A stretch of 64,000 nucleotides of DNA from Porphyromonadaceae bacterium (GTDB lineage Bacteria > Bacteroidota > Bacteroidia > Bacteroidales > Paludibacteraceae), in assembly GCA_012523295.1 (NCBI GenBank), contig JAAYIT010000197.1, positions 1-64,000 of the forward strand, given 5' to 3'. Shown piece after piece: positions 4,726 through 46,895 of the stretch. A program made the translations under genes and the position numbers. Below the pieces are notes generated by a model. The model was not told the DNA's origin. It saw only the letters and a list, made by a program, of their open reading frames with translations, and did no database searches. The number at the start of each line of letters is the position of its first letter. Position 1 is the stretch's first letter.

Positions 4726-6138
4726 CTACTTCACCAATGGATTACTGCTCATCAGCTCTCCATTTATCCGAAGATTATCAAACTTTACATTTTCAATTTT
4801 CCCTGTGAAATGGTTTCCTCTTGCCACTCCGTTAAAAGCGCTGTTGCTGACAAAGATATCCTGAACAGACAGCTCATCGGGAAGCGCGTCGATAAACACA
4901 CCGTACCGGCTTTTCTGTGAAGTCACTTTGTCAATATAGATATTTTTCACTGTCGGGATAAATCCTCTTTCACCCACTTCACGCGGTTCGTAAAGGAGGT
5001 TAATATGCAGCACAGCCTCTTTGCATTCACCAACTTCCACATTTCTCACGAATACATTCTCGATAGTTCCTCCACGTAAAGTATTGGTTTTGATACGGAT
5101 AACTCTATCAAGCAGCGGACTGTCCATTTTGCAGTTTTCGACGAATAAATTATTGTAACCGCCTGAAATTTCACTTCCGATCACAACTCCGCCGTGTCCG
5201 TTTTTCATTTCACAATTTCTTACAATTATGTTTTCACTGGGTCTCGACCAACGTCTTCCATCATTATTTCTCCCCGATTTTATGGCGATACAGTCATCTC
5301 CGGTATTGAAAAAGCAGTTTTCAATCAAGACATTCGTACAAGATTCAGGGTCGCAACCATCTCCGTTTGGTCCATTATTTTCTACATATACACCACGAAC
5401 GATTACGTTGTCGCAAAGCAGAGGATGAATCACCCAGAATGGCGAACGAAGTATTTTTACATCTTCAATCAACACATTATTACATAGATAGAAGTTTATC
5501 ATCTGCGGTCTCATGCCATCATTTTCCGTCAAAATTCGTTTCGAAACAGGTAGTTTTTCATTGTTCCATTGCATCAGTTTCGGACGTCCGGTGCGTTGAG
5601 ATATATCACCTTCCTGCCACCCGAAACGAACAGCTCCGCACTTTTTCCACCAGTTTTCATTGGCCGCATTTCCATCCAGCGTTCCTTTTCCGGTGATGGC
5701 TATATTCGATTCACCGTAAGCATATACCAACGGCTGATGATTGTAGCAGTCCATCCCCTCCCAACGTGTCAAAACAGTGGGGAAATACTTAGGATCGGTA
5801 GTGAAAAGGACAACTGAGCCTTCTTCAAGATGTAGGTTCACATTGCTCTTCAGGGTTAACGGAGCTGTAAACCAAGTTCCGGCGGGGACAATCACTTTTC
5901 CACCTCCATCTCTGCTGCAAGTGGCTATAGCTCTGTTAATTGCTTCTGTATTGAGCACGGTAGTATCGTTCGGTATAGCTCCAAAATCTCTGATGTTGTA
6001 GCTTGCGTTTTTGAATTTTGGCGCCTTGATATTTTTCAGAATTTTCGGATAAGTCTTTTTCCACGCTGTTTTCTGATCTTGTCCGCTCAAAGCGAATGTG
6101 AATAAAATTAGGAATGAAATACTAAGAATTTTCTTCAT
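4726..6138 (-). CDS. Glycoside hydrolase family 28 (polygalacturonase-like), secreted
   Basis: Signal peptide; pectate-lyase-like N-term 'YNIRDFGAIPNDTTVLNTEAINRAIATCS', GH28 motifs 'NGPNGDGCDPESCTNVLIENCFFNTGDDCIAIKSGRN', 'GHGGVVIGSE', 'RIKTNT'. Confidence 0.93.
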   Translation of the reverse strand: MKKILSISFLILFTFALSGQDQKTAWKKTYPKILKNIKAPKFKNASYNIRDFGAIPNDTTVLNTEAINRAIATCSRDGGGKVIVPAGTWFTAPLTLKSNVNLHLEEGSVVLFTTDPKYFPTVLTRWEGMDCYNHQPLVYAYGESNIAITGKGTLDGNAANENWWKKCGAVRFGWQEGDISQRTGRPKLMQWNNEKLPVSKRILTENDGMRPQMINFYLCNNVLIEDVKILRSPFWVIHPLLCDNVIVRGVYVENNGPNGDGCDPESCTNVLIENCFFNTGDDCIAIKSGRNNDGRRWSRPSENIIVRNCEMKNGHGGVVIGSEISGGYNNLFVENCKMDSPLLDRVIRIKTNTLRGGTIENVFVRNVEVGECKEAVLHINLLYEPREVGERGFIPTVKNIYIDKVTSQKSRYGVFIDALPDELSVQDIFVSNSAFNGVARGNHFTGKIENVKFDNLRINGELMSSNPLVK

Positions 6139-6165
6139 TTGAATTGTGTTTTTAATTTATTACTA

Positions 6166-6241
6166 CTGACTGACACCCCCCCAGATAAATCCTGGGGTTA
6201 TAAAAGAAATTGTCCTACAGACAATTTTTAGTCGGTCAGTA
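6166..6241 (-). mobile_element. Short, internally deleted copy of dispersed hairpin element family A
   Basis: Reverse complement ACTGACCGACTAAAAATTGTCTGTAGGACAATTTC..CCCCAGGATTTATCTGGGGGGTGTCAGTCAGT matches the 5' part of copies at 44359 and 46534; flanked by ACTGACCGAC/ACTGACTGAC terminal inverted repeats. Confidence 0.7.
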
Positions 6242-6265
6242 ATGATTTAATGTATTTTTATGATA

Positions 6266-20191: not shown

Positions 20192-20248
20192 AGAACAAAA
20201 AGTATATAATAAATAAAAAAAAATCTTAAACCGAATGGCTGAAAATTT

Positions 20249-20283
20249 AATAACCGTGAGTTGAAATTCAGCTCACGGTTATT
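20249..20283 (-). terminator. Rho-independent terminator downstream of the 621-aa gene (possibly bidirectional)
   Basis: AATAACCGTGAG-t-TGAA-a-TTCA-g-CTCACGGTTATT, 12-bp perfect outer stem with flanking T/A tracts. Confidence 0.85.
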
Positions 20284-20307
20284 TTTTATATTAATCTACT
20301 ATTTTTT

Positions 20308-44273: not shown

Positions 44274-44351
44274 ATGAAACAGCCATTAAAAGCGAATATT
44301 CACCCAAACCGCATGAAGATGAATGGCGTTTTCCATAAGACCTTGATGTGA
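44274..44351 (+). CDS. Putative 25-aa micro-ORF MKQPLKANIHPNRMKMNGVFHKTLM
   Basis: ATG 44274 to TGA 44349-44351; homologous to the micro-ORF at 11884-11958. Confidence 0.55.
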   Translation: MKQPLKANIHPNRMKMNGVFHKTLM

Positions 44352-44358
44352 AAAAATC

Positions 44359-44680
44359 ACTATTAATCGGCTAAAAATTGTCTGTAGGACAATTCCTTAA
44401 ATAACCCCCGGATTTATCTGGGGGTGAAAGGTCAAAAATATGGCAAAACTCTGTAGGAGTTTTCCCAAAAAATCAGCACCGGGAAACACTTACAGTATTT
44501 GATTGCTAACTTATGGAATCCACCCCCAATTAAAATTGGGAAACTTGTCCGACCTTAGGCGGATTATGAAAATTAAACTTCTACGAAGTAAAAAAACGAT
44601 TCCACAAGTTGTTCACGAGCTACATATAGCTGCATATCAGCAACATATGTTGCGAATTGATATTTTTATAGATCAGTAAT
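44359..44680 (+). mobile_element. Dispersed multi-hairpin element family A, full-length-like copy 1
   Basis: Extended similarity to 46534-46850; serial hairpins AATTGTCTGTAGGACAATT, CCCCCGGATTTATCTGGGGG, AAACTCTGTAGGAGTTT, CCCAATTAAAATTGGG, terminal palindrome GCAACATATGTTGC. Confidence 0.8.
44640..44653. promoter_or_regulatory. Conserved 14-bp perfect palindrome 50 bp upstream of fucI (candidate operator)
   Basis: GCAACATATGTTGC, identical at 46811-46824. Confidence 0.45.
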
Positions 44681-44702
44681 ATTAAAAAATAAAATTTATC
44701 GT

Positions 44703-46517: not shown

Positions 46518-46533
46518 TTGTTTTATAAAAAAA

Positions 46534-46850
46534 CACTACTGACCGACTAAAAATTGTCTGTAGGACAATTCCTTAAATAACCCCCAGATTAATCTGGGGG
46601 TGATAGGTCAAAGAGATGGCAAAACTCTGTAGGAGTTTCCCAAAAAATAAGTATTGGAAAACACATACAGTATTTGATTACTAACTTATGGCTCTCCAAT
46701 TAAAATTGGAGAACTTGTCCGACCTTTGGCGGATTATGCAAAGCAAACTTCTACACAGTTAAAAAAAGCGCTCCAAAAGTTGTTTAGAAACTATATATAA
46801 TTGTATATGTGCAACATATGTTGCGTATTAATATTTTGTCAGTCAAAAAT
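46534..46850 (+). mobile_element. Dispersed multi-hairpin element family A, full-length-like copy 2
   Basis: Extended similarity to 44359-44680; ends CTGACCGACTAAAAAT / RC TTGACTGACAAAATAT; perfect palindrome CCCCCAGATTAATCTGGGGG. Confidence 0.8.
46811..46824. promoter_or_regulatory. Conserved 14-bp palindrome upstream of fucU (candidate operator)
   Basis: GCAACATATGTTGC, identical to 44640-44653. Confidence 0.45.
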
Positions 46851-46895
46851 GAAAAAAAATAGTAACCTTTTATTCTCACTCAAAATCTGAATTCT

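Follow-up and report, generated by a model that had tools for sequence, protein, structure and literature searches.

Subclass 1.2 of the Y1 proteins is marked by the signature Y---Q--HH, has a median length of 148 aa and occurs in Cyanobacteria and Bacteroidetes; its members are described as relatives of IS200 transposases that have neither the properties of an insertion sequence (IS) nor a REP, the REP column for the subclass reading 'no' (Quentin and co-workers, PMC6006769). Among other Y1 genes, those of subclass 2.6 in Bacteroidetes are flanked by unusual hairpins (PMC6006769), and within the Bacteroidales, Porphyromonas gingivalis carries the BrickBuilt MITEs (PMC4596501). Here we describe a dispersed, hairpin-rich family from a Bacteroidales draft genome (4.0 Mb, 417 contigs). 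It is very likely, in our judgement, that its members are non-autonomous MITEs of the IS4 family, whose transposase combines DUF4372 and DDE domains, and that they carry the hairpin module of a different system, that of the subclass 1.2 Y1 proteins. As IS4 ends and a Y1-type module lie in one element, two transposition systems would share it.

The window, that is, the whole stretch of 64,000 nucleotides that was analysed, holds the three copies reported by a sequence-only reading, with ends refined as listed. In the list, TIR stands for terminal inverted repeat and H1 to H6 for the hairpins; R1, a covariance model, and L072, a locus of the same draft, are described below.

4726-6138, minus strand: GH28 gene; the short copy lies 22 bp upstream
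6161-6244, minus strand: short, internally deleted copy with both TIRs; only H1 (6208-6226) and H2 (6179-6197) are present; R1 match, E=0.017
44349-44357 and 44682-44690: 9-bp flanks of copy A, TGAAAAAAT and TTAAAAAAT, 8/9 identical
44358-44681, plus strand: full copy A, 21 bp upstream of fucI
44374-44468, plus strand: half-unit 1 of copy A; R1 match, 40.9 bits, E=1e-5
44478-44594, minus strand: half-unit 2 of copy A, inverted; R1 match, 25.4 bits, E=0.008
46525-46533 and 46852-46860: left and right target-site flanks of copy B, ATAAAAAAA and AAAAAAAAT, 7/9 identical
46534-46851, plus strand: full copy B, between fucI and fucU; TIR, H1 to H6, tail, TIR
46534-46549, plus strand: left TIR of copy B, CACTACTGACCGACTA; matches the left end of the L072 IS4-family IS (CACTACTAACCGACTA)
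46550-46644, plus strand: half-unit 1 of copy B; R1 match, 37.3 bits, E=4.8e-5
46552-46570, plus strand: H1, AATTGTC-TGTAG-GACAATT; hairpin 1 of half-unit 1
46581-46600, plus strand: H2, CCCCCAGATTAATCTGGGGG, CCCCC..GGGGG; hairpin 2 of half-unit 1
46622-46638, plus strand: H3, AAACTC-TGTAG-GAGTTT; hairpin 3 of half-unit 1
46660-46674, plus strand: H4, AACACATACAGTATT; inverted counterpart of H3
46694-46711, plus strand: H5, CTCCAATTAAAATTGGAG, CCAATT-AA-AATTGG; inverted counterpart of H2
46715-46737, plus strand: insert beside H5, TTGTCCGACCTTTGGCGGATTAT; in genome G005 reversed, at the mirror position beside H2
46746-46760, plus strand: H6, AACTTCTACACAGTT; inverted counterpart of H1
46761-46851, plus strand: 3' tail, common to TIR-bearing copies only; ends in the degenerate right TIR, GTCAGTCAAAAATG

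The six hairpins follow a symmetric plan, in which H1-H2-H3 is followed by an inverted H4-H5-H6. All the hairpins listed from the letters alone are there, TCCG..CGGA included, but H4 (consensus AACAC-WTACA-GTRTT) and H6 (consensus AACTT-CTACG-AAGTT) had been missed, and these two are important because they make the second set of three an inverted counterpart of the first. The full window elements, 318-324 bp long, are without coding capacity, and no ORF of at least 100 aa lies within 46534-46851. The neighbouring genes fucI, fucU and GH28 were confirmed with Pfam.

A BLAST search with the second copy as query returned 53 matches in the host draft (E <= 1e-3; 2e-96 for the best second copy), about 10 of which are near full length with 72-84% identity, and the TIR pattern was matched 59 times in the host genome against 15 times for the reversed control pattern. 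The element family is not due to chance, and the earlier description of a dispersed element with imperfect TIRs, many hairpins and further copies in the genome is correct. Elsewhere, the exact TIR-to-H1 pattern was matched in a single named MAG, Bacteroidales bacterium AS08sgBPME_385. Parts of the element are inverted between copies (L012, L025, L037, L040 and, in G005, L064 and L067-L069), with a reversed H1 loop, CTACA in place of TGTAG, and with the TCCGCCAAAGGTCGGACAAG segment at mirror positions, as expected of hairpin-mediated strand switching. At L015, L017, L024, L027 and L032, CAACGTTCGGCGTAGCCAATAA replaces or adjoins H2, a common insertion or replacement.

Both ends of the element read CAYTACTGACCGAC(T/A)AAAAAT inward, with CAYTACTGACCGAC as the TIR. 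A genome-wide search with the TIR pattern led to contig C156 (L072), where the same sequence forms the left end of an IS (CACTACTAACCGACTAAAAAT) that encodes an IS4-family transposase (NCBIfam IS4, 1.6e-62; Pfam DUF4372 and DDE_Tnp_1). This IS is interrupted by the contig end, and its right end is absent from the assembly. Its closest complete relative, at L091 in another genus of the same family (63% identity), has TIRs with this sequence at its two ends, at 1185 and 2595 (TACTATTAACCGACA and CACTACTGACCGACA); a clear target-site duplication (TSD) was not seen at this complete copy. A link to a transposase with matching ends, raised earlier from the letters, is thus borne out by an IS in the same draft and by its relative. 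In a curated set of 27 elements, the two flanks were most alike at a length of exactly 9 bp (identity 0.67 versus 0.48 in shuffled flanks, z=6.2, 0/5000), and 8 of the 27 were within one mismatch of a perfect 9-bp duplication against 0.7 expected, numbers to be read with the AT-richness of the flanks in mind, which produces more chance matches and is corrected by the shuffles only in part. None of the other lengths from 5 to 13 rose above z=2.3 in these elements, and the initial, uncurated list gave the same 9-bp peak. On the basis of its TIRs, its 9-bp TSD, its shortness, its lack of coding sequence and its many copies, the outer frame is a MITE of an IS4-family IS.

The interior leads to another system. 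Hairpins of the same kinds flank two Y1 genes of the host (PF01797), those of L048 and L050, and the Y1 loci of this genome have no IS4-type TIRs. At L048 the order is half-unit, gene, inverted half-unit, and then a second half-unit with the first Y1 codons only. The last of these (1030-1170 of the locus; C323:38431-38534, minus strand), a half-unit with the first dozen codons beside the intact locus, is an internal deletion remnant. The L048 protein has 148 aa and the motifs NDHIH and YIKNQKEHH; in NCBIfam, the Y1 proteins match the IS200 model only, above its cut-off. We searched 295 genomes of the order, found relatives in 159 and examined the 30 best loci, where the Y---Q--HH signature was present in all 30 proteins. 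Perfect hairpins within 250 bp of these genes averaged 2.1 upstream and 2.5 downstream, compared with 0.27 and 0.35 beside other genes. Strict triples (a first hairpin, 6-22 nt, a second, 8-60 nt and a third), a count independent of R1, were found in 30/58 Y1 flanks, in 1/580 shuffled flanks and in 0/54 distant windows. R1 was built from an alignment, A3, of 17 Y1-gene flanks from outside the genus, in other families. In A3, 18 of 20 pairs showed two-sided change, with a covariation score of 0.60 versus 0.21 when shuffled (0/500); since its sequences were chosen for their hairpins, the pairing percentage is biased upward, and the triple counts are the selection-free evidence.

R1 finds both full window copies and, in copy A, also the second half-unit, which is inverted. 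The Y1/RAYT link considered in the sequence-only reading proves relevant as well, in one element with the matching transposase ends. The model is weak or absent on the second half of copy B and on several decayed copies; it gave 40 matches in loci of the host genome and 27 in loci of G005. Adjacent plus and minus matches, i.e. inverted pairs, were seen in L036, L065, L058, L154-L158 and others. By manual count, half-units lie on both sides and inverted at 20/30 Y1 loci, and on at least one side at 28/30; for the 16 loci outside the training set, the corresponding counts were 8/16 and 14/16. Matches occurred in 16 of 20 Y1-bearing genomes outside the training set (2-82 each) against 3 of 20 genomes without a Y1 match (one each), a co-occurrence with Fisher p=9e-5, a statistic that ignores the kinship of the genomes. 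No R1 match was found at L049, a gene with the subclass signature, and G005 has many units, yet no Y1 protein closer than 35% to the query. Judged by sequence comparison, the interior is shown to consist of two inverted three-hairpin half-units homologous to Y1-gene flanks. Position, structure and co-occurrence suggest that a Y1 protein may act on this module. As units without TIRs we counted L059, L062, L065, L066 and the Y1 loci; free-standing status was rejected for L060, L063, L043 and L035/L036/L041 (host genome and G005), where the TIRs are degenerate or different. At L047 (contig C50, 1094-2061), a Y1 gene with YINNQKERH lies amid very different hairpins (GCCCTTTCAGGGC, AACGCCAACGGCGTT, CATAGGGCATCGCCCTATG), and R1 still matches. 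A weak match in the window (20223-20298, plus strand; 19.1 bits, E=0.13) is probably due to chance.

The module also lies within other frames. In the host genome, a second TIR, AATGTCATTAAGYTAAG, surrounds four further complete six-hairpin units (L154, L155, L157 and L158, on contigs C158, C394, C53 and C74); three of the four have both ends, 324-328 bp apart, and the flanking duplications are about 10 bp long. The same TIR occurs in G296, a genome of another family (L170, L180). Most dispersed units of G296 lie between GTAAGTTCAAACTGATTTCAGA repeats (87 occurrences versus 0 for the control), with 8-bp duplications, many of them perfect. The GTAAGTTCAAACTGATTTCAGA-ended elements (L164-L183, L210, L229, L233) hold either the Y1-type module or, in some cases, a different hairpin set, with CGTAGGG/CCCTACGGG hairpins, as if the cargo of these MITEs were exchangeable. 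Further frames were seen in G066 (GAGGCTGTCCCAAAAGT), in G053 and G295 (beginning TTCTACTTT) and perhaps in G229 (GGYTCTATAACG). The GTAAG and GAGGCTGTCCCAAAAGT ends are reminiscent of IS66 and IS1182, and no transposase was identified for them. No frame was detectable around the units of G125 and several others. In G129 and G229 (L192-L199), the dispersed half-units are paired minus then plus, opposite to the host genome, G005 and G296.

The three window copies lie in the sense orientation 21-44 bp upstream of fucI, fucU and GH28, as had been pointed out. Retention of the copies as a structured RNA in 5' leaders, for example one that controls the expression of these catabolic genes, would account for this arrangement and for a modest bias in the family as a whole, 20 of 27 copies being co-directional with the gene on their 3' side (p=0.019). 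The arrangement is confirmed but does not set these three apart: every one of the 29 elements examined is intergenic, and host copies adjoin many kinds of genes in both orientations, many of them internally deleted. The change from CCCAATT..AATTGGG to TCCAATT..AATTGGA, from which selection on structure had been proposed, does exist in the letters but amounts to a single cell in 16 copies, and across these 16 TIR-bearing copies covariation is at the level of chance (2 pairs versus 2.0 +/- 1.1 shuffled). With stems that covary no more than expected by chance, the copies of the window family offer in themselves no support for such selection. Covariation did exceed that of shuffled alignments (0/500) in 12 units of two species, 3 clear TIR-bearing copies and 9 others. 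No Rfam family was matched, the best being a chance-level rox2 (E=2.9), and on this and the chance-level covariation among copies a structured RNA was rejected; we regard the leader RNA as quite unlikely. RNAalifold gave a different fold for the 16 copies, with H3 joined to H4, which we set aside because half-units that are inverted relative to one another will pair as a matter of course.

Hairpins are common in MITEs, and TIRs with a TSD suffice for dispersal, so that the family could be an ordinary MITE of the IS4 type, with internal hairpins that are native to it and unrelated to the Y1 system. However, R1, built from Y1-gene flanks only, matches the interior, and the module is found without these TIRs around the host Y1 genes and in the four TIR-less loci named above; its presence inside other TIR frames counts further against an explanation already disfavoured, which we think has little chance of being correct. 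That the interior is Y1-related, and that Y1 genes are present in the genome, would also fit movement of the whole element, TIRs included, by a Y1 protein (RAYT or TIRYT), the IS4 likeness of the ends being convergence. Against this stand the 9-bp target duplication, a product that Y1 transposition is not known to yield, the lack of such TIRs at the host Y1 loci and the match of the TIRs to an IS encoding a DDE transposase; movement by a Y1 protein is thus extremely improbable.

If the family is an IS4-family MITE with a Y1 module inside, the element would have been mobilised in its entirety by the IS4 transposase, through cut-and-paste transposition, and the hairpin module would have travelled as a passenger. 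The module itself may be, or descend from, a single-stranded Y1 substrate, REPIN-like and equivalent to a Y1 locus minus the gene; once inside the MITE it would have decayed, without constraint on its structure. Its uptake by MITEs might reflect chance capture, a preference of Y1 units for insertion into such elements or some advantage to the MITE. More broadly, we incline to the view that in Bacteroidales the Y1 proteins of subclass 1.2 make up a REPIN-like system with inverted three-hairpin modules of its own, and that unrelated MITEs of the DDE type have repeatedly picked up these modules as cargo. The MITEs would represent at least four to five TIR types, IS4-like ends and one type with 8-bp duplications among them, and the resulting elements would carry signals for two mechanistically different transposases. 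Proteins described as orphans would then have a candidate for their DNA substrate, one whose structure is defined and covaries. The arrangement also suggests how non-autonomous units whose enzyme is rare or lost could spread, namely as passengers in MITEs that belong to other families. Should the nesting recur as often as it seems to, many MITEs in Bacteroidales would be composites of two systems, and for this phylum the numbers of REP-like repeats and of MITE repeats would have to be interpreted jointly. Provisionally, and with reference to open papers, there appears to be no precedent for a MITE that carries a module of the Y1 system, nor for a candidate substrate of this Y1 subclass, which had been described as having none.

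Among known systems, the BrickBuilt elements are likewise Bacteroidales MITEs with repeated internal sequence, but by description their interior is a minisatellite rather than an inverted three-hairpin pair (PMC4596501). The TnpA-Y1 genes of subclass 2.6 resemble the loci described here in their genome-recurrent flanking hairpins, termed 'atypical secondary structures', but have the Y motif YIH[QN]NP instead of Y---Q--HH (PMC6006769). With IS200/IS605 (TnpA subclass 1.1) the likeness lies in the Y1 family, in subterminal hairpins and in an NCBIfam IS200 score above cut-off, whereas the motif here is Y---Q--HH and not Y[IV]ENQ, the copy number is low and each side has three inverted hairpins. 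REPIN/BIME systems with RAYT (TnpA-REP) share inverted hairpin pairs, units that flank a Y1 HUH gene, dispersed non-autonomous copies and covarying stems. They differ in that one half is a single REP, compared with three hairpins (about 95 nt) here; no GTAG/GTGG foot is present here, GTAG occurring in the loops of H1 and H3 and other loops elsewhere, and the associated Y1 gene belongs to subclass 1.2, with no REP reported (PMC6006769). The closest likeness in the outer frame is to IS4-family MITEs, with which the family shares the TIRs of an IS4-family IS, a short non-coding sequence, a 9-bp TSD, intergenic position, multiple copies and internal deletions; the interior here, however, is a hairpin module related to Y1-gene flanks rather than an IS4 remnant.
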